Shown here in pieces: positions 5,891 through 50,668 of a DNA stretch of 64,000 nt. Within the stretch, counting starts at the first letter, position 1, and each line of letters opens with the position of its first letter. The position numbers were made by a program, and so were the translations under genes. The DNA is taken from the NCBI RefSeq assembly GCF_027891095.1, contig NZ_JAQIIO010000002.1, positions 186,001 through 250,000 of the forward strand. Direction: 5' to 3'. The notes beneath the pieces were generated by a model. That model did not search any database. It was not told where the DNA came from and saw only the letters and a list, made by a program, of their open reading frames with translations. This stretch comes from Aliiroseovarius salicola (GTDB lineage: Bacteria; Pseudomonadota; Alphaproteobacteria; Rhodobacterales; Rhodobacteraceae).

Positions 5891-7483
5891 ATGTCAGATC
5901 TGATCGACGATCCCGTTCCGGGGCAGAATACGCCCGAATATACCGTGGCCGAAATCTCGGGTGCGGTGAAGAAGACCATCGAAGGCGCGTTTGGTCGTAT
6001 CCGTGTGCGTGGTGAGGTTGGTCGTGTCTTCAGGGCACGTTCCGGGCATCTTTATTATGACATCAAGGATGACGGTAATGTGCTGGCCTGCACCACCTGG
6101 AAAGGACAGGCAGCTCGACTGAGTGTCCAGCCCGAGGAAGGGATGGAGGTGATTGTCACCGGCAAGCTGACTGCCTTTGGTGCCCAGTCCAAATACAACA
6201 TAAATGTGGATGAGGTGGTCGTCGCGGGCGAAGGCGCGCTGATGGCGATGCTGGAAAAGCGTAAGAAAGCTCTGGCGGCCGAAGGGCTGTTTGACGAAGG
6301 CCGCAAACAGAAGATCCCGTTTCTGCCGGAAATCGTCGGGGTGATTACCTCCCCATCTGGTGCCGTCATTCGAGATATCCTGCATCGCCTGCGTGACCGC
6401 TTTCCACGCAAGGTGCTGATCTGGCCGGTGGCGGTGCAAGGGGCGGCCTGTGCGCCGGAGGTGGCCCGTGCCATCGAAGGGTTCAACAAGCTCACGCCGG
6501 GTGGGGCCTTGCCACGCCCTGACCTGCTTATCGTGGCCCGTGGTGGTGGCTCCATCGAAGATCTTTGGGGGTTCAACGAAGAGGTTGTCGCGCGTGCCGC
6601 CGCCGCTTCACAAATCCCGCTTATTTCGGCGGTGGGACATGAAACAGACACGACGCTGATCGATTTTGTCTCCGATCTGCGCGCACCGACCCCAACTGCG
6701 GCCGCCGAACATGCGGTGCCGGTGCGGTTGGAGCTTCTGGCCTGGGTGGATGAAGCGGGCGCGCGACTTTCGCGTGCCATGGGGCAGGGAGTGACGCAAC
6801 GTGGGCAACGTTTGCGCGACCTGTCTCGCGCGCTGCCGCGTCCCGAGACGCTGCTTGATGCGCCGCGTCAACGGTTGGACCGCGCCGAAAAGGACCTGCC
6901 CGCGGCGCTGCGCAACGTGGCCCAAAGCCGCAAGGTGCAGCTGACGCAGGTGGCCTCTGGTTTGCGCTCGCAATCCCTAGTGTCTTTGATTGGACAGCGA
7001 AAAGAGCGGATTACCACTTTGGGGGATCGGCTGGCGCCTGCCCTGTCCAGAACCAATACGGAAAAACGCAGGGAGTATTCACGTGTTGCAGCTCGACATA
7101 ATGCGGATCGTATTTTCGCGGAATGCGCACGCAAACAAGGTGAGATTCATGAGTTGTCCACCCGTCTGTCTCGCGCCTTCGAGGCAAACACCACCCGTCA
7201 CCGCGACCGCCTGACTGCAATGGAACGGATGCGCCAGACATTGGGCTACACGGAAACCCTGAAACGTGGATATGCGGTGGTGCGCGGGGATGGAGAGCTC
7301 GTCACCACCAGCGTTGCCGCGCGCGCCGCGACCGCGCTTGAAATCGAGTTCGCCGATGGACGTTTGCCGTTGGATGGATCAACGCCGCCACCTCCGCCCA
7401 GTTCAACCAACGCACAGCCGAAACCCGCGCCCAAAAAGGCGAAATCTGCAAAACCCAGCCCAGATCAGGGATCGTTGTTCTAA
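5891..7483 (+). CDS. xseA: Exodeoxyribonuclease VII large subunit XseA
   Basis: Large subunit of exonuclease VII, which degrades single-stranded DNA together with XseB. The 530-residue protein has an N-terminal OB-fold (about 15-110: YTVAEISGAVKKTIEGAFG...VRGEVG), then the nuclease domain with GVITSPSGAVIRDI, ARGGGSIEDLWGFNEE and SAVGHETDTTLIDFVSDLRAPTPTAAAE. A long coiled-coil region and a Pro/Lys-rich tail follow. The ATG at 5891 fits the family start (MSDL...); an earlier in-frame ATG at 5825 only adds residues encoded in the purD-xseA promoter gap. xseB is not in the window. Confidence 0.96.
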   Translation: MSDLIDDPVPGQNTPEYTVAEISGAVKKTIEGAFGRIRVRGEVGRVFRARSGHLYYDIKDDGNVLACTTWKGQAARLSVQPEEGMEVIVTGKLTAFGAQSKYNINVDEVVVAGEGALMAMLEKRKKALAAEGLFDEGRKQKIPFLPEIVGVITSPSGAVIRDILHRLRDRFPRKVLIWPVAVQGAACAPEVARAIEGFNKLTPGGALPRPDLLIVARGGGSIEDLWGFNEEVVARAAAASQIPLISAVGHETDTTLIDFVSDLRAPTPTAAAEHAVPVRLELLAWVDEAGARLSRAMGQGVTQRGQRLRDLSRALPRPETLLDAPRQRLDRAEKDLPAALRNVAQSRKVQLTQVASGLRSQSLVSLIGQRKERITTLGDRLAPALSRTNTEKRREYSRVAARHNADRIFAECARKQGEIHELSTRLSRAFEANTTRHRDRLTAMERMRQTLGYTETLKRGYAVVRGDGELVTTSVAARAATALEIEFADGRLPLDGSTPPPPPSSTNAQPKPAPKKAKSAKPSPDQGSLF

Positions 7484-10307: not shown

Positions 10308-11000
10308 TCACAAGGTGATCGGCACCAGAACCTCGGGTTCCACCACATCCACTCCGGGCAAACCGTCGCGCAGGGCCTCCGCCGATTGCTCAAGCAGAGG
10401 GAAGGTACGGTAGTGGCAGGGGATCACGGTCTTGAAGTCAAAGTAGCGTTTGGCCGCGTAGGCAGCGCGTGACATATCCATGGTGAAATGGCCGCCAGCG
10501 CAGAGAATGCCTATATCCGGTTTGTGCAGATCCCCCATCCACTCCATATCCGCCATAATGTCGGTGTCGCCTGACAGGTAGATCATGTGACCCTCGCCCG
10601 CGATCATGTACCCGGCCTCGGCCCCGGTGTAGATCGGCCCGTTGGCGCCAGCCATGGACGAGCTGTGCGTGGCATTCACCATCGTAACTTTCGCACCATT
10701 CAGATCTACTGTGCCGCCTTTGTTAAAGCCGACCACGTCGATTTCATGTTTATGTTCCCACCAGCTCATCAGGTCGTAAATGCCGACGCAGGTGATGTTC
10801 AGCTCACGACAGATATCCAAGGCATCGCCAATATGATCGCCATGTCCATGGGTCAGCACGACATGTGTGGCCCCGGCGATCGCCTCTTCGCGGCGCTCTT
10901 CGGGGAACATCGGGTTTCCCGTCATCCACGGATCGACCAGTAGAACGGCCTCCTCGATCTCGATCCGAAATCCCGCATGTCCCAGCCATGTAATCCGCAT
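10308..11000 (-). CDS. UPF0173-type metal-dependent hydrolase (MBL fold)
   Basis: The 230-residue protein has the metallo-beta-lactamase fold signature THGHGDHIGD at about 50-59 (His ligands and Asp), preceded by the N-terminal MRITWLGHAGFRIE typical of the UPF0173 group. Further ligands are likely in NATHSSS, LSGDTDIM and the C-terminal IPCHYRTFP. The physiological substrate of the family is not settled; UlaG-like lactonase or phosphodiesterase activity is possible. It is divergent from gatC with about 150 bases between the starts. Confidence 0.92.
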   Translation of the reverse strand: MRITWLGHAGFRIEIEEAVLLVDPWMTGNPMFPEERREEAIAGATHVVLTHGHGDHIGDALDICRELNITCVGIYDLMSWWEHKHEIDVVGFNKGGTVDLNGAKVTMVNATHSSSMAGANGPIYTGAEAGYMIAGEGHMIYLSGDTDIMADMEWMGDLHKPDIGILCAGGHFTMDMSRAAYAAKRYFDFKTVIPCHYRTFPLLEQSAEALRDGLPGVDVVEPEVLVPITL

Positions 11001-11149
11001 AGTCGCCTCCCAGAAATCTCTCCTGTTATCACAGTAGCGCAGAAACCCGATCAGTCACTCGGCTATCACGTCGCAGGCGCTTGCCCCTTTGGCGTCCACG
11101 GGCTAAACGGGTCGGCAACAAATCTCGCGAAACTCATTGGGGGCCCCCC

Positions 11150-11437
11150 ATGTCGATCGACATCGAAACCGCGCGCAAGGTTGCGCATCTCGCCCGGATC
11201 CGGGTGGAAGAAGACCGCCTGCCGGAACTGGCTGAAAACTTCAACGCCATCCTTGGCTTTATCGAACAGCTCAACGAGGTGGATGTTGAGGGTGTTGAAC
11301 CCATGACCTCGGTCACCCCGCAGCGCCTGAAACGCCGCGAGGACGTCGTGACCGAAGGCGACATGCCCGAGAGGATCCTGTCCAACGCCCCCGATGCCCG
11401 CGAAGGGTTTTTTGCTGTTCCGAAGGTGGTTGAGTGA
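11150..11437 (+). CDS. gatC: Asp-tRNA(Asn)/Glu-tRNA(Gln) amidotransferase subunit GatC
   Basis: Small subunit of the GatCAB transamidase that converts misacylated Glu-tRNA(Gln) or Asp-tRNA(Asn). The 95-residue protein starts [17 protein letters not shown] and has the central helix-turn and EPMTS segment (residues 50-54) that threads between GatA and GatB. The ATG at 11150 follows GGGGGCCCCCC, a poor ribosome binding site. The stop overlaps the gatA start, so translation is coupled. gatB is not next to gatA here and is not in the window. Confidence 0.96.
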
Positions 11438-12924
11438 TGACTGAACTGAACAAATTGACCATTGCCGACGCCCGTGACGCCATGCGCAAGGGCGATCTGA
11501 CCTCGGCAGAGCTGACCGATGCGTGCCTTGACGCCATCGAAGGCGCCGATGCGCTGGGTGCTTTTGTACACAATACGCCTGATCTGGCGCGCGAGCAGGC
11601 CAAAGCCGCAGATGCACGCATTCAGGCAGGCGACGCGCCGGACATGTGCGGTATTCCGCTGGGCATCAAGGATCTCTTCTGCACCAAGGGCGTACCCTCG
11701 CAGGCGGCGTCGCGCATCCTCGAAGGGTTCACCCCGGAATACGAATCGACCGTCAGCCAGAACCTGCTGGACAATGGCACGATCATGCTGGGCAAGCTCA
11801 ACATGGATGAGTTCGCCATGGGCTCGTCGAATGAGACCTCGTGCTATGGCAATGCCGTGAACCCGTGGCGTCGCGGCAATGAAGATACCGCTCTTACTCC
11901 GGGTGGATCATCCGGGGGGTCTGCTTCCGCTGTGGCTGCTGATCTCTGCCTTGGTGCAACCGGCACCGACACCGGCGGCTCGATCCGCCAGCCCGCCGCC
12001 TTCACCGGCATCACCGGCATCAAACCCACCTACGGTCGCTGCTCGCGCTGGGGTGTGGTGGCCTTTGCCTCCTCGCTGGATCAGGCCGGTCCGATGACCA
12101 AATCGGTGCGCGATGCCGCGATCATGCTTGAGGCCATGTGTGGCCATGACGCCAAAGACAGCACCTCTGCCGATCTGGCCGTGCCGAATTTCGAAGCGAT
12201 GTTGACCGGCGACATCAAGGGCAAGAAAATCGGTATTCCGAAAGAATACCGTATGGACGGTATGCCGGACGAAATCGAAGCGCTCTGGGCCAAAGGCGCG
12301 GACATGCTGCGCGACGCGGGCGCCGAGATTGTCGATATCTCGCTGCCGCATACCAAATACGCGCTGCCAGCATATTATGTGATTGCACCGGCAGAAGCCT
12401 CATCGAATCTTGCCCGCTACGATGGTGTGAAATACGGCCACCGCGCCACGCTGGAAGCGGGTGATGGCATCAATGACATGTATGAAAAGACCCGCGCCGA
12501 AGGCTTCGGATCCGAGGTGCAGCGCCGTGTGATGGTGGGCACCTACGTGCTGTCAGCCGGTTTCTATGACGCCTATTACAACCGCGCCCGTCGGGTGCGC
12601 ACGCTGATCAAGAAAGACTTTGACGACGTGTTTGCGCAAGGTGTGGATGCGATCCTGACCCCGGCCACCCCATCGGCTGCTTTTGGTTTGGGCGAGATGA
12701 AGAATGCCGATCCGGTCAAGATGTATCTCAATGACGTCTTTACCGTGACTGTGAACCTCGCCGGTCTTCCCGGCATCGCAATCCCAGCCGGTCTTGATGC
12801 GCAGGGCTTGCCGCTGGGTTTGCAGTTGATCGGACGCCCATGGGAAGAGGGTGATCTGCTGAATATCGCCCATGAGGTCGAGGCCCGCGCCGGTTTTGTG
12901 GCGAAGCCCAATAAATGGTGGTAA
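11437..12924 (+). CDS. gatA: Asp-tRNA(Asn)/Glu-tRNA(Gln) amidotransferase subunit GatA
   Basis: Amidase-signature glutaminase of the GatCAB complex. The 495-residue protein shows the Ser-cisSer-Lys triad at Lys78 (GIKDLF), Ser158 ([10 protein letters not shown]) and nucleophile Ser182 (TGGSIRQP), with the 24-residue Ser-Ser spacing seen in characterised GatA. The ATG at 11437 overlaps the gatC stop by one base; a GTG at 11434 is an alternative that adds one residue. It is followed by a lipoprotein gene 42 bases downstream. Confidence 0.97.
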
Positions 12925-42578: not shown

Positions 42579-43661
42579 ATGTCGAAATTTGAAGCGCAGC
42601 TCAAGGAAAGTCAGGAACAGGTGGCGGAAGCGCAATCGAAGATTTCCGAGCTGACCACGCGGATTGAAACCGCACGCGCCAAGATGAAATCCGGTGAGGA
42701 CGTGTCGATTGATATCGAGAACGCGACGCTGGATGACGTGCATGCGCATACCGAGGCGATGAACGCCAATATTGCTGAACTGATCATGGGGTTGGACGAT
42801 GTGACCGCCGGATTTAGTTCGGAATTTGAACAGCTTAGGTCAAAGACTGCTTGGGAGGGGTTCATTGGAATTTTTGCCAGCGGTAAGTCCGAGGCGATGC
42901 GGCAGGAACGTCTGCGCTCGGCCTCTATTGATGACAAGCTGCAGGAGTTGATTGGCCAGTCCGACACGATTGTGCGCCTTCTGGAAGGGCAGTTGAATGT
43001 GCTCAATGAACAGAAGGGAAAAGTTGAGGGCAACCTGACCGAGACTCTGGATGAGCGGGAATTCACGGTGAAGGAGTTGGAAACGGTGCGCGCCGAGATC
43101 CTTGATATGGATCCGAAGATTATCGAGCTTGAGGGTAAGATATCCAATGAAACCGACGCCGCCGCGCGCACGGCTCTGGAAACGGAACTTGCCGATTTGA
43201 ACAAGCAATACAATGCATTGGTTCAGGATGAGCAGGTGAAAGTGGCAAAATCGCAGACGTTGGAGCGCTATATCGAAAAGGGCAAGACCTGGGTTGACTC
43301 GCTGCAAAATCAGGCGGCGACGCAGATGGTATTGATCAACAAGCTGCAGACGGACACCAAGCAGCGCGTGGTGCTCTATGATGCGCTGACCAAATCGCTG
43401 AAGACCGCACAGCAGCAGGACGTCGCGCACCGGATCAATGAAATCGGGGTTGAGACCGACAAGGAAGCACAGGCTGCGATGGCTGCGATTGGCACGGCGA
43501 CCAACCAGCGCATGGCGGACATGATGGAAGCCCACGAAGACCAGATGGTCTTTGCCCGCGAGGTGTTGGAAGCCAAGGCCAAGGCAGACGAACGCTTTGC
43601 CCGGCGGTTTGCGGCGATTGTCGAGAAGCATGACAAGAATGCGTATGGGGCAGGACAGTGA
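42579..43661 (+). CDS. Long coiled-coil protein, first gene of unnamed operon
   Basis: A 360-residue soluble protein that is almost all charged alpha helix with heptad-like spacing. The N terminus (1-45) and the middle (about 115-200) look like coiled coils; residues about 205-290 (NKQYNALVQDEQVKVAKSQTL...QMVLINKLQTDTKQRVVLYDALTKSLK) form another helical bundle. A short hydrophobic stretch WEGFIGIF at about 90-97 could touch a membrane. There is no signal peptide. It resembles PspA/TelA-type filament-forming proteins only in overall style; I do not claim homology. AAGGAGG lies 7 bases before the ATG, the best ribosome site in the operon. Confidence 0.8.
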   Translation: MSKFEAQLKESQEQVAEAQSKISELTTRIETARAKMKSGEDVSIDIENATLDDVHAHTEAMNANIAELIMGLDDVTAGFSSEFEQLRSKTAWEGFIGIFASGKSEAMRQERLRSASIDDKLQELIGQSDTIVRLLEGQLNVLNEQKGKVEGNLTETLDEREFTVKELETVRAEILDMDPKIIELEGKISNETDAAARTALETELADLNKQYNALVQDEQVKVAKSQTLERYIEKGKTWVDSLQNQAATQMVLINKLQTDTKQRVVLYDALTKSLKTAQQQDVAHRINEIGVETDKEAQAAMAAIGTATNQRMADMMEAHEDQMVFAREVLEAKAKADERFARRFAAIVEKHDKNAYGAGQ

Positions 43662-43971
43662 AACTAGGGTGACCAGCGATAATTCTATTCGGAGTTTTTT
43701 GACGGCGTTTTTCAGAAGAGCGGAATGGGTTCTCATCGTTTTGCTTAGTGTCGGTATGTTTTTTAACTCCGTCATTATTGTTGCAGTGTCCGTACTCCTG
43801 TTCTTCTGGCTTTATTTCTGGGGTGCCGTGGCATTGGTTGGTTGGGTAGTGGTCTGCGTGCTGAAGTTTTTATCGTTGTGGTCGCCATGGTGTGAACAAA
43901 AAGCAAGGAATATTGAGCTGTGGCTAGATCGTCCAAGAATGAAGGCCGGGCTTAGAAAATGGATGGACTGA
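43645..43971 (+). CDS. Small two-span membrane protein of unnamed operon
   Basis: A product of about 108 residues (from the ATG at 43645, overlapping the previous stop; a GTG at 43669 would avoid the overlap and give 100). Two hydrophobic segments are visible: AEWVLIVLLSVGMFFNSVIIVAV and the following LLFFWLYFWGAVALVGWVVVCVLKFL, with a basic C-terminal tail. The family is not recognised. The gene is AT-richer than its neighbours. The next gene starts 9 bases after its stop, so they are co-transcribed. Confidence 0.75.
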   Translation: MGQDSETRVTSDNSIRSFLTAFFRRAEWVLIVLLSVGMFFNSVIIVAVSVLLFFWLYFWGAVALVGWVVVCVLKFLSLWSPWCEQKARNIELWLDRPRMKAGLRKWMD

Positions 43972-43980
43972 CACCGAAAT

Positions 43981-45150
43981 ATGTCTGAAGAAATCAAATC
44001 CACCGAACAGGACAGCGCAGGATTTGCGCCGCGCGACCACGCCGAGCTGACCGACACGCAAATCACACGTCGCTACTTTGCCAAGTTCGACGCGATCACC
44101 GGGCATCTTGCTCGTGTGGCGGGGCAGATGGAGGCTGAAGGGCGGATGGGGCGCGATGAGGTTCAGGTCTTGGCGGAATACCTCGTCAAGCTGGGCTTCA
44201 CCTTTCGGGCGCTGTCAAACAAGTATCATTTCTCGGGAGCGGCTGGTGGAGTATCAACACAGGCGCTTACCTTTGATCGGCGTGAAAGCGGGTTTCCGGT
44301 GGCGGCGGAGCTGTTGCAGATGGCGGCGGATGCGGCGCAGGCCGAGGGGCATCTGGCGGGGATGCCCAGCGTAGATAAGCTCAAATCCGAGATGGTGAGC
44401 CAGATTGTCGGGGAACTCGCCAAACCCACCAAGCTGCAATACAGCCTGTCACAAAGGCTCTACTACGAAGAATTGGTCAAAGGGCAGCTTTTCTGGCCGC
44501 AGATGCACCCCGACGTGATCTGGCGCCGGAATGACGGCGAGGGGCGCCATGTGCGGCGTCATTACCTGATGCACTGGGCAGTTTATGACAGTGAGGTGAA
44601 CCTGCCGACGATCTACCTGATGGAAGTCGAAGACACCGGCAAATACGCGCTGCCCAAGGATGACGAACGCTGGCCGCAGGTGCAGGCGCATTTGACGGCG
44701 CAGTCAATGGCGGGATTGAAGCTGGTGACGATTGCCACCGGGTTTGATCGCGATTTTGACAACCTGCACCCGAAACGCCTGCGACGGTTCCATATCGGTC
44801 CGATGTACAGCCACACGTTCACGCGCCAGACCGGCCCGTTGCGTGAGGTTCTGGAAGAGGCGAAATCCCCCCCCGGCGAGGATTGGGCGCTGGCTTGGAC
44901 ACTGGAGGAGTTGGAAAGCCGAGAAGTGAAAGAAGAACGCTCTGGCTGGTTTGGGACAGTCGAGCGCGAAGTATTTCAGCTTGATCCCTTTGCTGGGCGG
45001 GGCGCGGATCTTGGGGCGACACGAATGGAACGTTCGATCATTCTGCCCGAACGCCCGTTTCAGGTTTTGGCAGAGAAGAACCCGCCAGGCTTTCGTGATG
45101 TACGGAAATTTGTGGTTCGCCCTGGCGGGCAGGTTCTGAGTTATCGGTGA
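43981..45150 (+). CDS. Unrecognised soluble protein of unnamed operon
   Basis: A 389-residue cytosolic protein with no membrane segment. The N-terminal third (about 25-165) is helical and contains AELLQMAADAAQAEGHLAG. The centre has a conserved-looking block WRRNDGEGRHVRRHYLMHWAVYDSEVNLPTIYLMEVED and a later RRFHIGPMYSHTFTRQTGPLREVLEEA. No known catalytic motif is seen. Position between the membrane protein and the AAA ATPase genes suggests it works with them. Confidence 0.8.
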   Translation: MSEEIKSTEQDSAGFAPRDHAELTDTQITRRYFAKFDAITGHLARVAGQMEAEGRMGRDEVQVLAEYLVKLGFTFRALSNKYHFSGAAGGVSTQALTFDRRESGFPVAAELLQMAADAAQAEGHLAGMPSVDKLKSEMVSQIVGELAKPTKLQYSLSQRLYYEELVKGQLFWPQMHPDVIWRRNDGEGRHVRRHYLMHWAVYDSEVNLPTIYLMEVEDTGKYALPKDDERWPQVQAHLTAQSMAGLKLVTIATGFDRDFDNLHPKRLRRFHIGPMYSHTFTRQTGPLREVLEEAKSPPGEDWALAWTLEELESREVKEERSGWFGTVEREVFQLDPFAGRGADLGATRMERSIILPERPFQVLAEKNPPGFRDVRKFVVRPGGQVLSYR

Positions 45151-45156
45151 GGTTGC

Positions 45157-45207
45157 TGGGGGACGCTGTCCCCCAGGCCCCCTGGGATATTTATGGTCAG
45201 AAGAAGA
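45157..45207 (+). repeat. Interspersed palindromic element inside the operon (copy 14)
   Basis: A forward half unit without the GTGAGCC hairpin: GGGGGACGCTGTCCCCC, CCCCTGGGATATTT and ATGGTCAGAAGAAG. It lies in the 97-base gap between two same-strand genes of the unnamed operon, an unusual place for this family, and could reduce read-through into the AAA gene. Confidence 0.85.
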
Positions 45208-45247
45208 GCTGGGTTTTGTATCTTCTGAAAATTTGGGAGAGTGAATT

Positions 45248-47206
45248 ATGTCAATGCCAGCAGATGTGATGGAGCTTCGCGAAGAGGAAATCCGCGCGCA
45301 TTATGATGCCGCGGCGGGGTTTTTGGACGGGTTTGATCACACACCCCGTATTGCCAAACCGAAAGTCGCGACAGCTCAGCCAGAGCGGTCATCTGGTCTT
45401 GGCACGCGGCGGCGGTTTCGCTCGACCACACCCGGACTGGTGACGCGATCCACTGCGCGACCTGAAGGGGTGCATCTGGTTGAGCGGATTGAAGGGGCAG
45501 ATGGAGGGGATCCGCTGGTCTCGCCGCTTCAGGCCACGGTGTTGCACGGGCTGCGTCGTACTCTGGCGATTGCGCTGGCCATGGGGGAGGGGTTTGCCGA
45601 AGCAACCGAACTGGCGACCCTGAAACGCGCTAATCTGCAAGGCGCGTTGGCAGGCGAGAAGAAGACCTTGTTCACCGGGCTTCTCGCGGCAGAAAGCCTT
45701 GCCGTCCTGCACGTCTTTGCCAATGCGACCGCATTCCTTCTGGCCCCGCACAGCACGGAAGTGTCGGTCGAAGTGGGCACCGTGGACGAGGTGCTGACTG
45801 ACAATGCTCCTCTGGCTTTGCATGGTGCTTTGTGGGAGTTGGATCAGGATTTGGCGGCATTTGTCGATGCAGACGAAAAGCTCGTGCCGACGGTTCTCGC
45901 TTTTGCCGAACAGCTGATGGAGAAGGTGGCCCTGCGCGCGCAAAACGCGCCGCATCTGGGGGCGTTTACGGGTGCGAATTTCCGGGTTGAGGCGGATGAG
46001 CTGACGATCTCGGGCTTCACGCCGGCGCGCAGTGCCAAAGGGTCGACACTGACCATGGCGTTCAAAAAACCGAACGAGGTTGTGGGCAATCACATTGCCA
46101 AATACCAGGCGATGAAGCTCAGTAAAATGCTGATGGCTTATGACTTTGAGCGCAAGCTAAACCCCTTTGCCGAACTGGGCGGGTTCATTTTCACCTTTAT
46201 GGGCGATGGCGCACCGGGGACGGGCAAAACTACGCTGATCCAGATGATGGCGGGGTTGGTGAATGAGTATTGTCAGGTGGCGGGCTATCCGTTCCGCTAC
46301 CAGAATTTCGGTATCGATAATATCGACAGCTATCAGGGCAAATCGGGGCAGAACGCCAAGGCGTTCATCCAGAATGTGCTCGACCCGCAGGTGATCGGGT
46401 TTGGTACGATTGATGACATTGACCAGATTGCTGGCAAGCGCGGGGACCGTCAGTCTTCAGCCGGTCAGCAGGAAGTGACCGCTGTGTTCATGGAGGCCTT
46501 TGCGGGCGCGAACACTGTGGTGCGCGGTAATTGCACCTTTGGCATGTTCTCGAACTACCCCGAAAATGTAGACGACGCGCTGCGCCAGCGGGCGGGCGCG
46601 CGGTTTTTGGTGGATGGTCCGCAGACGCGGGAGGATTACATCGACATCCTCAACCTGCTCATGGGCAAGAACCACACGATCCCGCTGGGGGAGCATGAGG
46701 CGTTTGCCGCGCAGGAAATCAAACGCGCGGTGGCAGCGAGCTTTGATGGGCACAGCCGTCCGAAAGAGGCAGGGCTTCTGAATGTGTTTGACCGGGTGCA
46801 TGGCGAGATTGGCGAGCTGGATACGATTGCCAAAATGGGCACCTATTTGAAGGCCATCCAAGTGGCGGATCCGCGGTTCACTGGGCGTGCGATCAAGAAC
46901 ATCACCGACGCGGTGAAGGTGCGCGCGATGGATTTTGAACTGCCGGATGAGTGGATGGAAAACCCCGACCTGTTCCTGTTCAAATCCTACGACGAAAAGA
47001 AAGCGATGATCGCCGACCTGCGTGTGCCGATCACCGTGGAAATGGTCATTCAGGAAATTAACCGCTACGCCGACAGCGAGTTCCGCTACGCCGACAAATC
47101 GGACGAAGTGGCGATTGAAAACATGGTGCGGGACTTTGGCCGTCAGGAAGAGGCGAAGCGGCGGTATTTGGAGAATAAGAAAATTGGGGTGAGTAAAGAT
47201 GCCTAA
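45248..47206 (+). CDS. AAA-family ATPase of unnamed operon
   Basis: A 652-residue protein. Residues about 1-300 are an unrecognised N-terminal region with a disordered basic start (30-70). The AAA module follows: Walker A GDGAPGTGKTTL at 319-330, Walker B VIGFGTIDDID at 382-392 (with Asp-Asp in place of the usual Asp-Glu), sensor-1-like MFSNYPENVDDALRQRAGARF at 433-453 with Asn436 and candidate arginine fingers Arg446/Arg448, and a helical lid after 460. It is probably a hexameric remodelling ATPase. The gene start overlaps nothing; its 3' end overlaps the next gene by 8 bases. Confidence 0.88.
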   Translation: MSMPADVMELREEEIRAHYDAAAGFLDGFDHTPRIAKPKVATAQPERSSGLGTRRRFRSTTPGLVTRSTARPEGVHLVERIEGADGGDPLVSPLQATVLHGLRRTLAIALAMGEGFAEATELATLKRANLQGALAGEKKTLFTGLLAAESLAVLHVFANATAFLLAPHSTEVSVEVGTVDEVLTDNAPLALHGALWELDQDLAAFVDADEKLVPTVLAFAEQLMEKVALRAQNAPHLGAFTGANFRVEADELTISGFTPARSAKGSTLTMAFKKPNEVVGNHIAKYQAMKLSKMLMAYDFERKLNPFAELGGFIFTFMGDGAPGTGKTTLIQMMAGLVNEYCQVAGYPFRYQNFGIDNIDSYQGKSGQNAKAFIQNVLDPQVIGFGTIDDIDQIAGKRGDRQSSAGQQEVTAVFMEAFAGANTVVRGNCTFGMFSNYPENVDDALRQRAGARFLVDGPQTREDYIDILNLLMGKNHTIPLGEHEAFAAQEIKRAVAASFDGHSRPKEAGLLNVFDRVHGEIGELDTIAKMGTYLKAIQVADPRFTGRAIKNITDAVKVRAMDFELPDEWMENPDLFLFKSYDEKKAMIADLRVPITVEMVIQEINRYADSEFRYADKSDEVAIENMVRDFGRQEEAKRRYLENKKIGVSKDA

Positions 47207-48233
47207 CGCCAGAATTAGCTTTCCAACTAAGACAGATTTGGCAACCCTGTTCGAATTTGCTAGGGATTTGGATTATTACACGCAACATGATCGGTTGATC
47301 ATCGATATGCCAAATAAGGTGTTTTGTGGCCCATTTGCAATGTTGTTGTTGGGGGCTAAGATTAAGTATTTAAAAGATAAGTGTCCCAATTTGCAGGTCA
47401 TATTTAATAATTGGGATAGCCTACCATATCTTTCTCATATGGGCTTTTATGATTTATGTGGCTTCGATCATGGAAAGATGATGGGGCAAGCCTCGGGCAA
47501 CTCTCGCTATCTTCCAATTACTCAACTGGAGGAAAAAGACTTAGTCGAAAAGCCCATCGATGAGTACGAAGAAATGCAAGATCTTTTGCAGCGCTCGGTT
47601 GATCGCATCGCACTGGTTTTAGCGCACGATCAATACGAAAACCAAGATCTCTACGATGTTCTGGGATATTCTCTGCGCGAAGTTTTTAGGAATAGCTTTG
47701 AGCATGGTGACACGTCGAGTATCTATTATTGCGCTCAATATTGGCCCACGAGCAACAAAGTCGAATTTGCGGCATGTGATTTTGGGATTGGTGTCAGAAA
47801 AGGGCTTGGGCGAAATCCGAACTTTCGTTTTAAAAAAGATAAAGATGCGCTGGAGTGTGCGCTTCTTCCAAGTGTTTCGGGGCGAACACATGAGCCAAGG
47901 CGGTCTTCGAATTGGTTCAACTCTGGCTACGGGCTGTATATGACAAATCGACTTGCTCGGAATGGTGGAAACTTTGTTATTTGTAGCGGAAATAGTGCGA
48001 TCTGTATGACGCCTAAAACTAAGAGTAACTTCGTGACTTCCTTTCCAGGAACAATTCTACGAGTGAACTTAAACGTAGGTCAAATTGGGCGTGTTCAAGA
48101 TCGTCTTGCGGAGTTTCGTGAAGAAGGAAAAATGATCGCTGCCAAAATCAAAGGTTCAGGAAATCGTCCGCCTTCAGCGATGTCACTACTTCTAAGGCGT
48201 GACTATGCTCCTTCGCCTAGGAGAGGGGGATGA
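47199..48233 (+). CDS. GHKL-type ATPase with STAS-like N terminus, AT-rich
   Basis: A 344-residue protein. Residues about 1-105 resemble a STAS-like fold (DRLIIDMPNKVFCGPFAMLLLGAKIKYL). A histidine-kinase-like ATP-binding module follows: N box LREVFRNSFEHG at 159-170 (Glu161, Asn165, His169), G1 box ACDFGIGV at 192-199 (Asp194) and G2-like SGYGLYMTNRLARNGG at 242-257. There is no phospho-acceptor domain, so it is more like anti-sigma/SpoIIAB or DUF4325-associated ATPases than a sensor kinase. The coding sequence is much AT-richer than every neighbour, yet overlaps the AAA gene by 8 bases and the next gene by 4. Confidence 0.85.
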   Translation: MPNARISFPTKTDLATLFEFARDLDYYTQHDRLIIDMPNKVFCGPFAMLLLGAKIKYLKDKCPNLQVIFNNWDSLPYLSHMGFYDLCGFDHGKMMGQASGNSRYLPITQLEEKDLVEKPIDEYEEMQDLLQRSVDRIALVLAHDQYENQDLYDVLGYSLREVFRNSFEHGDTSSIYYCAQYWPTSNKVEFAACDFGIGVRKGLGRNPNFRFKKDKDALECALLPSVSGRTHEPRRSSNWFNSGYGLYMTNRLARNGGNFVICSGNSAICMTPKTKSNFVTSFPGTILRVNLNVGQIGRVQDRLAEFREEGKMIAAKIKGSGNRPPSAMSLLLRRDYAPSPRRGG

Positions 48234-49630
48234 AACGCCTCATTAAACGCGGTCTGATGTTCGGCAATCTGATTCGGGTGGACAGCCCGGCGTTGATTGC
48301 GCGCTACAACCGTGCGTTGGAGAAGCTCTCGGGGCGGACCACAACCCTCACCGAATTTCACATCGACATTTCCGGTTTCTCGCCCGAAGTGGGTGAGGAG
48401 TTTGGGGACGATGCATATCTCAACCCCGGCGGTTGCAATCGGCAGTTCATCATCCTCACTGTTGATCAGAAAAAGGCGCCGCTTTTGAATGCGTCTTTCT
48501 CCACCTCGCGCGGGATCTTGAAACAGTTCATGGCGCAGCATGAAGCGAAGCTTTTTGCGCTCACCGCCCATGATGCGGTGGCGGGCGAGTTGGAGAACTC
48601 GGTTTATGCGGTTGGCGAGATGCGGGATGTGCTGGCGATCCGCAAGATCTCGGTTGTTGCGGACACCACGCAAAGCCATGTGGCGAACGCGCGGAAACTC
48701 GCAGAGAAGATCGACCATTTCCAGACTGCTGAGGGCGCGTGGTATGACGATCAGCTCATCGACGAGATGATAGACCTCGCCCGCGAAACCGGCGACGTGA
48801 CCCGAGTGCCGGTGGATCTGGGCACGCCCACCTATGAGCAGGGCAATTTCTGGACCAGCCATTTTGGTGGTGTCTATGTGTTTCGAGATGCCGAAACGCC
48901 TGCGCTGATCACAGCGGGAGACCGCACGCAGCTCAAAGGGGCGCCGTTTGACCGGTTCTATGATCTGGATGATGTGAATGGGATCGCGTCCTTCCTGAAG
49001 AAAAACGATCTGGTGGAGCCGGTGATCAAGGCGCGCGGTGTCGATGGCGCGCGGATCCTGCGGCAGAAAATGCAGTTCATGTTGGTGGATGCCGCGACCA
49101 ATGCCGGGATGGATCTGGGTGATATGTCACACCGCACCCTGCGCCGGATTGCCAACCGGCTTGCACAATCGCGGGGCCTGCCGGAAGCGTTCCGGGGGCT
49201 TGCCGCGATGGTGCGTTGGGCGGAAGCAGGAGGCAAATGGCCGCGGATCGACAGCCGCCATCCGTCCTATTTCTACACCCTGCGCGCACGGCCAGATCAC
49301 CCGGACCGCGACCTGATCAACCAGCTTTTGTCCGAGCTTGCACCCATGGATGTGCGCCAGCTTTTCATCTGTCACAAACAGGCCTTTTATGGTGCCTATG
49401 CCACATGGCCAGACGAAAAACGCGAGTTTGTGGCAGAGTTCCTGCATCGTGATTATATGGCAAATAAGGCGGGTGCCAGGGAGCGCCTGTTTGGAGGTGA
49501 GAAAACGGCTCTGGCTGAGAGCCCCTCGGCACGCAATCCATGGAATTCGGTCAAGCAAGACCAGGAGGCGCTGCGTGAGAAGTTGATTGATGTGGTTGGT
49601 CCCTGGGGGGCGATTGGACGGAGGAGATAA
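48230..49630 (+). CDS. Unrecognised large soluble protein of unnamed operon
   Basis: A 466-residue protein with no signal peptide or membrane segment. The N-terminal 60 residues contain a basic start (MKRLIKRGLMFGNLIRVDS) and a helical stretch; the central part has DFYDLDDVNGIASFLKKNDLVEPV-like helices. The Arg-rich region HRTLRRIANRLAQSRGLPEAFRGL (about 303-326) could bind nucleic acid or acidic partners. No catalytic motif is recognised. Its ATG overlaps the GHKL gene stop (ATGA). Its own stop overlaps the next start by one base, so three genes are translationally linked. Confidence 0.82.
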   Translation: MKRLIKRGLMFGNLIRVDSPALIARYNRALEKLSGRTTTLTEFHIDISGFSPEVGEEFGDDAYLNPGGCNRQFIILTVDQKKAPLLNASFSTSRGILKQFMAQHEAKLFALTAHDAVAGELENSVYAVGEMRDVLAIRKISVVADTTQSHVANARKLAEKIDHFQTAEGAWYDDQLIDEMIDLARETGDVTRVPVDLGTPTYEQGNFWTSHFGGVYVFRDAETPALITAGDRTQLKGAPFDRFYDLDDVNGIASFLKKNDLVEPVIKARGVDGARILRQKMQFMLVDAATNAGMDLGDMSHRTLRRIANRLAQSRGLPEAFRGLAAMVRWAEAGGKWPRIDSRHPSYFYTLRARPDHPDRDLINQLLSELAPMDVRQLFICHKQAFYGAYATWPDEKREFVAEFLHRDYMANKAGARERLFGGEKTALAESPSARNPWNSVKQDQEALREKLIDVVGPWGAIGRRR

Positions 49631-49905
49631 TGGCCTTTCTGCGACTTATCATTTTTGGCTATCTCGGGCTGACGGTGCTGTATTGGATCATCAGCCTCTA
49701 TTCCCGTTCCGTGCGCCTTGAATGGCTGGAGGGTGAGTGGGCAAAGGACCATCCAGAGGACAGTGACAGCCCCGAGCGTCAGGAGTTTTTAGATGCGGGG
49801 ATGGCCGAATATCACAAAAGCCTGCGGTCCAAACTCATCTGGCTTGTTTATATCATTCCGACCATTGTGGTCATTGTCGCACTGTTGGTGCGTAACACGA
49901 ACTGA
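49630..49905 (+). CDS. Small two-span membrane protein of unnamed operon (second)
   Basis: A 91-residue protein with two hydrophobic segments, FLRLIIFGYLGLTVLYWIISLYS (3-25) and KLIWLVYIIPTIVVIVALLV (68-87), separated by an acidic loop (WLEGEWAKDHPEDSDSPERQEF). Both ends should lie on the same side of the membrane. The family is not recognised. The start overlaps the preceding stop by one base and the following gene starts 8 bases after its stop, so it is fully embedded in the operon. Confidence 0.82.
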   Translation: MAFLRLIIFGYLGLTVLYWIISLYSRSVRLEWLEGEWAKDHPEDSDSPERQEFLDAGMAEYHKSLRSKLIWLVYIIPTIVVIVALLVRNTN

Positions 49906-49913
49906 GGTTTTCG

Positions 49914-50582
49914 ATGCAAACCGTAAAACGAACTCTCAAAATCATTCTGGTGATCCTGTTGGGGCTATGGGCTCATTATACCCTGCCGCAGCATGATATT
50001 GTGCGGGTGGTGAATACCTATCAGGAACGGCAGGATCTGGATGATTGGACCCGAATTTTCTGGGCGAGCCCGGATGACCAATCTACCGGGCTGGTGAACC
50101 GAGATGTTCAGTTCATTCAGACTGTAAGGAAGAAAACTTTCCTTCTGGGATTCTGGCGGCGTGATGCCGAGGCGGCCATGGTGTATCGCAACGAGGACAC
50201 CGGTTGGTCCTGGCCTCCATATCTGAAGTTTGACACAGCGACGTTGCAAACAGAAGTGGACGATCTGCGTTCAACACCAGAAAATCCGAAATGGGCGGTG
50301 ATTACGCATTACGGCTGGCGAAATGAGCTTTTCTCAGCCTTTCCCAATGCGGTGAAAATCCGGGCGGTCAGTGGGCCGGATGTGACAATCATTCCCTGGT
50401 TCAACATCTTCTTTTTTACGTTCTTGATTGCTGCCTGGTTGTTCCTGCGTGCGCTCTGGCGGCAGTTTCGTCAGCGGTCGATTGACCCGGCGCTGGAAGA
50501 TGTGACCGAGACCTGGGACCTGATCGATGACAAGGCGGATGAGGCCAAGGGGTGGTTCCGCGGCTGGTTCAAGCGCAAGTAA
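49914..50582 (+). CDS. DUF1523-family membrane protein
   Basis: A 222-residue protein with an N-terminal membrane anchor (KIILVILLGLWAHYTLP, 8-24) and a second hydrophobic segment (IIPWFNIFFFTFLIAAWLFL, about 155-175). The LPQHDIVRVVNT start of the periplasmic part and RDVQFIQTV are typical of DUF1523 proteins, which are found mainly in Rhodobacterales. The C terminus is charged (DLIDDKADEAKGWFRGWFKRK). It is the last gene of the operon and is followed by a strong terminator. The function of DUF1523 is unknown. Confidence 0.85.
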   Translation: MQTVKRTLKIILVILLGLWAHYTLPQHDIVRVVNTYQERQDLDDWTRIFWASPDDQSTGLVNRDVQFIQTVRKKTFLLGFWRRDAEAAMVYRNEDTGWSWPPYLKFDTATLQTEVDDLRSTPENPKWAVITHYGWRNELFSAFPNAVKIRAVSGPDVTIIPWFNIFFFTFLIAAWLFLRALWRQFRQRSIDPALEDVTETWDLIDDKADEAKGWFRGWFKRK

Positions 50583-50602
50583 GTCGATCTTATGAGGTTA
50601 AG

Positions 50603-50632
50603 AAAGCCCCGCAATTGCGGGGCTTTTTGTTT
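50603..50632 (+). terminator. Bidirectional Rho-independent terminator
   Basis: Near-perfect stem AAAGCCCCGCA / TGCGGGGCTTT at 50603-50613 and 50616-50626, with a T run on the plus side and a shorter one on the minus side. It ends the eight-gene operon and probably also the deoC-ALDH operon that converges on it. Confidence 0.95.
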
Positions 50633-50634
50633 TC

Positions 50635-50668
50635 TTGCCTTCGGCGAGGATATTTTTGGTCAGAAGAA
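50635..50668 (+). repeat. Interspersed palindromic element, short fragment (copy 15)
   Basis: CTTGCCTTCGGCGAGGATATTTTTGGTCAGAAGA: only the GCC/GGC step, the GGATATTT core and the GTCAGAA end remain. It sits beside the bidirectional terminator. Confidence 0.7.

Follow-up and report, generated by a model that had tools for sequence, protein, structure and literature searches.

A conserved four-gene AAA ATPase unit in Rhodobacterales and the two variable gene slots of its operon

Does a tightly packed operon of eight genes necessarily encode one system? The question is raised by a locus of Aliiroseovarius salicola (Rhodobacteraceae) at positions 42579-50582 of the 64,000-nucleotide stretch analysed here (the window; contig NZ_JAQIIO010000002.1, positions 186,001 to 250,000). 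A first-pass annotation described eight same-strand genes, for a coiled-coil protein, an AAA ATPase, a GHKL-type ATPase, a DUF1523 protein, small membrane proteins and two unrecognised soluble proteins, as one unit recalling the PspA/ESCRT or TelA type of membrane-stress system. All eight open reading frames (ORFs), called g1 to g8 below, are found on the + strand; the operon is real and interesting, but its boundary as a system and the analogy were wrongly drawn. We propose instead, with a probability of roughly one half, a four-gene machine that is inherited vertically and whose operon also serves as a landing platform for exchangeable genes.

Which of the eight genes are inherited together? 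The AAA protein (g4, 652 residues, 45248-47206) was used as query against 121 Rhodobacterales genomes and a species-level collection of genomes, which gave 80 loci (the best 80 of 568); 110 loci, 30 of them short, were tested by tblastn with the window's proteins. The AAA gene was found in all 110 loci, g3 in 109, the gene of the DUF6638 protein (g6) in 103, g1 in 91, g7 in 75 and the DUF1523 gene (g8) in 73, and the missed copies of g1, g7 and DUF1523 are largely due to the short loci. The GHKL gene (g5) was found in four loci, the window's own and three others, and g2 only in the window's own. Gene order is conserved across Rhodobacterales: the exact six-gene order g1, g3, AAA, DUF6638, g7, DUF1523 appears in 67 of the 110 loci and in many genera, and many other loci are cut short. 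In the 121 genomes, g1 and g3 (by profile searches) and AAA occur in the same 70; AAA matches in 71, the extra one (G117) being weak and partial at 35% identity. Among 27 same-family genomes, DUF6638 is present in 14, all with AAA, and absent in 13, all without AAA. The coiled-coil protein g1 (42579-43661, 360 residues), g3 (43981-45150, 389 residues, soluble), the AAA ATPase and DUF6638 (48230-49630) form a four-gene unit whose members are present or absent together with rare exceptions.

What about the two genes at the downstream end? DUF1523 (49914-50582; PF07509, E 9.6e-62) is found in 117 of the 121 genomes: every one of the 70 core-bearing genomes has it, and so do 47 of the 51 core-less ones. 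Around DUF1523 in 16 core-less loci (L168-L183), g7 (49630-49905, a 91-residue membrane protein) adjoins in 11 and not in 5, and dapE lies upstream as in the window in 5 (L169, L170, L171, L174, L177). g7 and DUF1523 are residents of the locus, able to remain when the core is absent. Four genomes (G018, G020, G021, G023) have none of g1, g3, AAA and DUF6638, the last by whole-genome search, yet a gene with three transmembrane helices (3-TM) that is otherwise found between AAA and DUF6638 adjoins DUF1523 there. That DUF6638 is gained and lost with g1, g3 and AAA in spite of the intervening 3-TM gene argues that the four are one functional unit.

Then what lies between the core genes? Intervals were measured in 132 loci, after dropping 8 of 140 as near duplicates (position-by-position identity of the AAA DNA above 98.5%); loci truncated at contig ends contribute only some of the intervals. 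The median is 179.5 bp from g1 to g3 (128 loci), 69 bp from g3 to AAA (131) and 663 bp from AAA to DUF6638 (127), and downstream it is 3 bp from DUF6638 to g7 and 10 bp from g7 to DUF1523 (119 loci each). Intervals of at least 300 bp are found in 36/128, 11/131 and 104/127 loci at the first three junctions and in 0/119 at each of the last two. An architecture of two variable intervals, slot A between g1 and g3 (43662-43980 in the window) and the hypervariable slot B between AAA and DUF6638 (47207-48229), followed by invariable downstream junctions, is well supported. The genes that occupy the slots in the window, g2 (43645-43971, 108 residues, with probable transmembrane helices by eye) and the GHKL gene (47199-48233, 344 residues), are variable cargo, and the eight genes do not make up one system. 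Their guanine-plus-cytosine (GC) content is 45.8% and 44.1%, compared with 54.7-58.9% in the four core genes, and the GC content of slot B falls short of that of the AAA gene in the same locus by more than 5 points in 61 of 104 loci and exceeds it in 1. The two slots together hold 195 ORFs of at least 70 residues, which fall into 116 groups with 94 singletons, some of these certainly spurious. A slot-B group is shared by 6 of 25 locus pairs at AAA identity of at least 95% and by 24 of 42 at 90-95%. Slot B measures 60 bp or less in 8 of 127 loci, namely the Halomonas-type L085, L093 and L141, the alphaproteobacterial L140, and L091, L104, L186 and L222. In L096, at 10830-12068, slot B contains a 412-residue ORF on the opposite strand adjoining a co-directional cargo ORF.

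How precisely is the content of slot B exchanged? In two genomes of one genus (L206 and L223) the AAA proteins are 99.84% identical; DNA identity of about 95% reaches to within 2 bp of where the AAA stop codon ends and resumes at the ATG of DUF6638, and the slot-B genes in between, encoding 241 and 293 residues, have no DNA similarity at E up to 1e-3. Four further pairs were examined, two with exact boundaries (L078/L095, L064/L078) and two with one boundary about 12-15 bp off (L044/L046, L076/L078). The first cargo ORF starts -20 to +30 bp from the AAA stop in 78 of 110 loci, the last cargo stop lies -20 to +30 bp from the DUF6638 start in 82 of 110, and the commonest offset at both ends is -4. 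Slot B is cleanly replaced, from the AAA stop codon to the DUF6638 start codon. Crossover in the conserved flanking genes would be the simplest mechanism of such swaps.

What kind of genes are exchanged? The cargo scan comprised 61 ORFs picked by eye as plausible (set A4) and 10 further chosen proteins; counts from A4 are not those of a random sample, some genomes entering twice under different locus ids, and sets A1-A3 cover part of the available loci. Slot B holds an Mrr endonuclease, a type IV restriction protein in PADLOC, in L067 and L192. Other cargo includes three members with DUF2971 (PADLOC PDC-S31; the group of L052, L057 and L215), a DUF433 protein with a PIN_10 toxin-like protein (L043), an RNase_T/DEDDh exonuclease matching PDC-S48 (L223), an AbiJ_NTD4 protein (L145), DUF559 proteins (L087, L139), a DUF3825 protein (L019, the same gene as L204), proteins with a sub-threshold DUF4145 match (L011, L205), and two members with a GHKL-type match, presumably L028 and L066. 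A group of five loci (group 2) has in four members an RN-x4-H motif that is HEPN-like by eye. An ORF in slot A of L223, PemK/MazF-like by eye, has no Pfam match at E up to 0.05. Judged from these profile matches, several of the slot-B genes are members of families with a known place in anti-phage defence or in toxin-antitoxin systems, and a defence role of the cargo is plausible.

Is the cargo mobile? The largest group (group 0, 32 loci) is the small 3-TM family. Its strong hits (E 1e-20 or better) in the 121 genomes lie at the operon locus in 35 of 35 cases, of which 27 are in slot B and the other 8, at most 1.4 kb from DUF1523, in core-less genomes, so that the 3-TM gene is a resident and not mobile cargo; the many weak hits elsewhere (E 1e-5 to 1e-3), in ORFs of about 280 residues, look like other membrane proteins. 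A family with transmembrane and coiled-coil segments (group 1, 16 loci) has eight strong hits at slot B and seven weaker ones elsewhere, in seven genomes. It was rejected as AbiC, the seven members tested having no putAbiC match; the member in L209 matches putAbiC (E 1e-13). Relatives of the GHKL protein stand away from the core in 4 of the 121 genomes (G004, G008 with a broken hit at contig ends, G114, G115). Seven plasmid records, of which five are typed conjugative, also carry relatives, as do four phage records (23-32% identity). As to the GHKL name given to g5 by the first-pass annotation, the Pfam family HATPase_c_2 stays below cut-off (E 0.01), and PHROG 3364 (E 1.5e-26) and a partial fit to the DrmA model agree with the call.

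The layout of the operon in the window is as compact as first described. The junctions from g1 to g8 are, in order, -17, +9, +97, -8, -4, -1 and +8 bp, all within -17 to +9 except that between g3 and AAA; at its two ends g5 shares 8 bp with AAA and 4 bp with DUF6638. The first ATG, that of g1, is preceded by a Shine-Dalgarno-like AAGGAGG, and the strong terminator claimed for the operon end is seen as a terminator-like hairpin of 12 pairs with a T tail (50601-50628, + strand). The whole operon is likely, but no more than likely, a single transcript, because the g3-AAA gap contains a second, weaker terminator-like hairpin (45172-45186, + strand) and no sigma-70-like site was found upstream of gene 1 on the + strand. 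By eye, an intergenic motif made of a hairpin followed by ATATTT(A/T)TGGTCAGAAGAA occurs twice, at 45171-45207 between g3 and AAA and at 50632-50668 downstream of the operon terminator; it looks like a repeated intergenic element.

What might the core proteins do? In a Pfam scan of the window proteins, g1, g2, g3 and g7 have no family above cut-off. One of the two soluble proteins first taken as unrecognised is the DUF6638 protein (PF20343, E 3.2e-202); the other, g3, remains so, matching nothing in Pfam or NCBIfam at E up to 1, and profile comparison rules it out as a relative of DUF6638. The model of g3 is mixed alpha/beta and confident (predicted local distance difference test, pLDDT, 89.1; predicted template-modelling score, pTM, 0.88), and a fold search with it against PDB and BFVD gave no match at E of 0.001 or better, the rows shown having template-modelling scores to the query of about 0.15 or less. 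The model of g1 is all helix with a mean pLDDT of 64.7, its confident part being a hairpin of helices 117-190 and 194-280. With this low-confidence model no PDB match reaches E 0.001, and among the 50 matches listed of 922 the score to the query is at most 0.43 and no PspA or ESCRT-III (endosomal sorting complex required for transport) name appears; the top matches (E 0.004 or worse), which are designed bundles, SMC coiled coils and alpha-pore-forming toxins, were not used. Sequence searches of solved structures with g1, g3, DUF6638 and the GHKL protein gave no meaningful match.

The AAA protein matches PF00004 (E 1.3e-11). Its Walker A motif (GDGxPGTGKT), the Walker B aspartates Asp389-Asp390 and a YQG motif do not vary among 11 sequences that span Rhodobacterales, relatives outside this order, Halomonas and Vibrio. 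The YQG motif, an aromatic-x-Gly, fits what we take to be pore loop 1. Walker B normally reads Asp-Glu. Here it is Ile-Asp-Asp-Ile-Asp (46409-46423), with a second Asp where Glu is usual, and this substitution may slow hydrolysis. The nearest solved chains by sequence are an i-AAA protease, fidgetin-like 1 and Vps4, so the early view of a remodelling-type AAA beside a helical protein stands. In the N-terminal region of AAA, where an MIT domain was looked for, there is no Pfam match at E up to 1. How conserved is the core? The slowest-evolving core protein is g1, with a median pairwise identity of 79% compared with 75% for AAA (127 loci each). The neighbouring housekeeping genes for aldehyde dehydrogenase, dapE and deoC have 73-81% in 24-27 loci, a set that is not matched and possibly closer, and on these figures the conservation of g1 and AAA appears about equal to theirs. 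Distance correlations (rho 0.68 for g1-AAA, 0.76 for g1-deoC and 0.65 for AAA-deoC) are consistent with vertical descent.

Does the unit extend beyond Rhodobacterales? DUF6638 was found in 26 of 398 Pseudomonadota genomes. The order g1, g3, AAA, DUF6638 is kept at six loci outside the Rhodobacterales family (L137-L142). Four of them, from one alphaproteobacterial family, have identities of 41-42% for g1, 29-30% for g3, 54-57% for AAA and 31-33% for DUF6638 and are probably Rhizobiales, by resemblance; of the other two, one is from another family and one is almost the same as L085 and L093 (AAA 96-97%), two Halomonas loci that also keep the order. In PLSDB the AAA gene occurs in 10 records: four Sinorhizobium, one Rhizobium, one Shinella and four Vibrio plasmids of about 0.9 Mb. 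The four genes are in order in all five records read (S. meliloti Ak57, R. leguminosarum, Sinorhizobium K101, V. parahaemolyticus, V. vulnificus); in the two Vibrio records they are adjacent, with a gap of about 50 bp between AAA and DUF6638, and slot B of S. meliloti Ak57 holds an endonuclease-domain gene and an IS4-type transposase. The phage records searched with AAA gave no match. On the 0.9-Mb Vibrio plasmids (L225, L226) the core adjoins a plasmid-annotated mfd gene. Genes for DUF559-type endonucleases (group 4) were seen outside Rhodobacterales in L224 (10974-12719) and in slot B of L138, L139 and L142.

A mechanism can be sketched for the four-gene machine and its landing platform. Homologous recombination in the conserved genes on either side would bring about the exchange, without need of an integrase, and a newcomer would survive selection owing to its co-transcription and translational coupling. 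Part of the soluble cargo may protect against phage by nuclease or abortive-infection action. Most cargo would function without the core, since slot B is 60 bp or less in 8 of 127 loci and relatives of the GHKL and group 1 proteins occur elsewhere. The core itself may serve protein remodelling: an AAA ring would thread or disassemble the helical g1, g3 and DUF6638 would act as partners, and the small membrane proteins would lie near the membrane.

Several observations weigh against this reading. The 61 cargo proteins matched 16 PADLOC models and 61 flank proteins matched 15, so raw counts give no excess of defence genes over the flank control; Pfam families number 12 in the 61 cargo proteins and 86 in the flank set, most cargo having no match. 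The commonest cargo, the 3-TM group, has no assigned function, and its strong hits are confined to the locus. Many of the singleton ORFs are possibly spurious, and slot A and the g3-AAA gap are large only sometimes (36/128 and 11/131). One locus, from a metagenome-assembled genome (L072), carries AAA alone, and another (L106) lacks DUF6638, g7 and DUF1523 at the locus. A pure landing platform gives no reason why the downstream junctions stay free of cargo, and the remodelling role is inferred beside a weak g1 model (pLDDT 64.7).

Could the core itself be an immune system? By analogy with the CBASS operons described below, it would sense infection or restrain a toxic effector, with slots A and B holding interchangeable effectors, a possibility that we consider doubtful. 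It would agree with the concentration of large inserts in the two intervals flanking g3-AAA, with the nucleases and the Abi-type, PIN, GHKL and HEPN-like proteins among them, with the cargo that often overlaps AAA and DUF6638 by 4 bp and with the patchy core (70 of 121 genomes). However, a slot B of 60 bp or less in Halomonas and some Rhodobacterales, and of about 50 bp in Vibrio, means that no slot-B effector is obligatory; cargo relatives are found without the core, and g1 and AAA are about as conserved as the unmatched set of housekeeping neighbours. Spelled out as a modular immune system, which is offered tentatively, an AAA-governed helical assembly would hold or release a membrane, nuclease or toxin effector of slot A or B. 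It is also conceivable, at the same low level of confidence, that populations swap such effectors gene-for-gene through recombination in the core genes, even at 99.8% AAA identity.

Alternatively, the slots might be insertion-tolerant gaps that collect neutral genes and spurious ORFs, and the core an ordinary housekeeping accessory. The PADLOC matches, no commoner than in flank genes, the many singletons and the transposase in one slot B lean that way, but the placement of inserts is very uneven (104/127 vs 0/119), boundaries run from stop to start with frequent 4-bp overlaps, and whole domain families (Mrr, DUF2971) recur at the slot in several loci, which makes neutral accumulation improbable. 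Quite improbable, too, is the PspA/ESCRT or TelA-type membrane-stress system of the first-pass annotation, in which a filament protein, a disassembling ATPase and membrane partners would act together: the AAA resembles i-AAA, fidgetin-like and Vps4 chains with a pore-loop-like motif, the long helical hairpin of g1 is modelled confidently, membrane proteins adjoin and a PspA-like ORF lies near the operon in L140, but g1 has no TelA (PF05816) or PspA/IM30 (PF04012) match in Pfam at E up to 1, hhalign gives a probability of 0.3% against 15 TelA ORFs and 0.7% against 8 Rhodobacteraceae PspA-like ORFs, no PspA or ESCRT-III chain is named among the 50 fold matches listed, the window's own genome has separate TelA and PspA-like genes, and the slots are left unaccounted for.

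What follows from these findings? The slots offer a simple new search route for defence and toxin genes, as only the interval from AAA to DUF6638 has to be read in each genome. Since close relatives differ by gene-exact swaps, one can observe directly how operon parts are exchanged. The core is an uncharacterised and widely conserved AAA machine, and it includes a protein, g3, with a confident model and no PDB or BFVD match at E 0.001 or better. In the part of the literature covered by our search, no title names this operon and DUF6638 is absent; DUF1523 appears there in four papers, all on other subjects. DUF1523 is near-universal in the sampled Rhodobacterales (117/121) and has no assigned function.

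How does the operon compare with known systems? Like TelA, g1 is helical, soluble and of similar length, but it has no profile relationship with TelA, whose gene is separate in the same genome (G000:C12:331458-332453), about 95 kb downstream of the operon. With Vps4/ESCRT-III and PspA systems the operon shares a classical-type AAA, having PF00004 with Walker A, Walker B and an aromatic pore-loop-like motif, that adjoins a helical protein; it differs in that g1 is not detectably related to PspA and the operon partners are unrelated by name. The PspA-like ORF of L140, at 6402-7115, was seen by eye in an alphaproteobacterial relative outside Rhodobacterales. The GHKL cargo resembles DrmA of the defence island system associated with restriction-modification (DISARM), matching residues 49-211 of the 1750-residue PADLOC profile PDLC02567 (E 3e-7), but only this small part of DrmA is matched, the operon has no match to other DISARM models in PADLOC at E up to 1, and membership of DISARM, which calls for DrmA with DrmB/C and a helicase or methylase, is ruled out. 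Operons of the cyclic oligonucleotide-based anti-phage signalling systems (CBASS) pair a fixed sensor with variable effectors. A fixed core with an interchangeable linked gene is alike in this respect, but the core has no CBASS model match except a generic AAA hit (PADLOC TRIP13, E 1.9e-4), the slot is sometimes empty and the core is vertically inherited. There is a likeness in arrangement to core defence hotspots bounded by conserved genes, as reported for example in Pseudomonas aeruginosa (PMC10250203). The operon slots likewise hold variable, partly defence-type genes at a fixed site between conserved flanking genes, but here the interval is internal to a conserved operon, separating core ORFs that follow one another, and usually takes up one or two genes, often joined to their neighbours by 4-bp overlaps.

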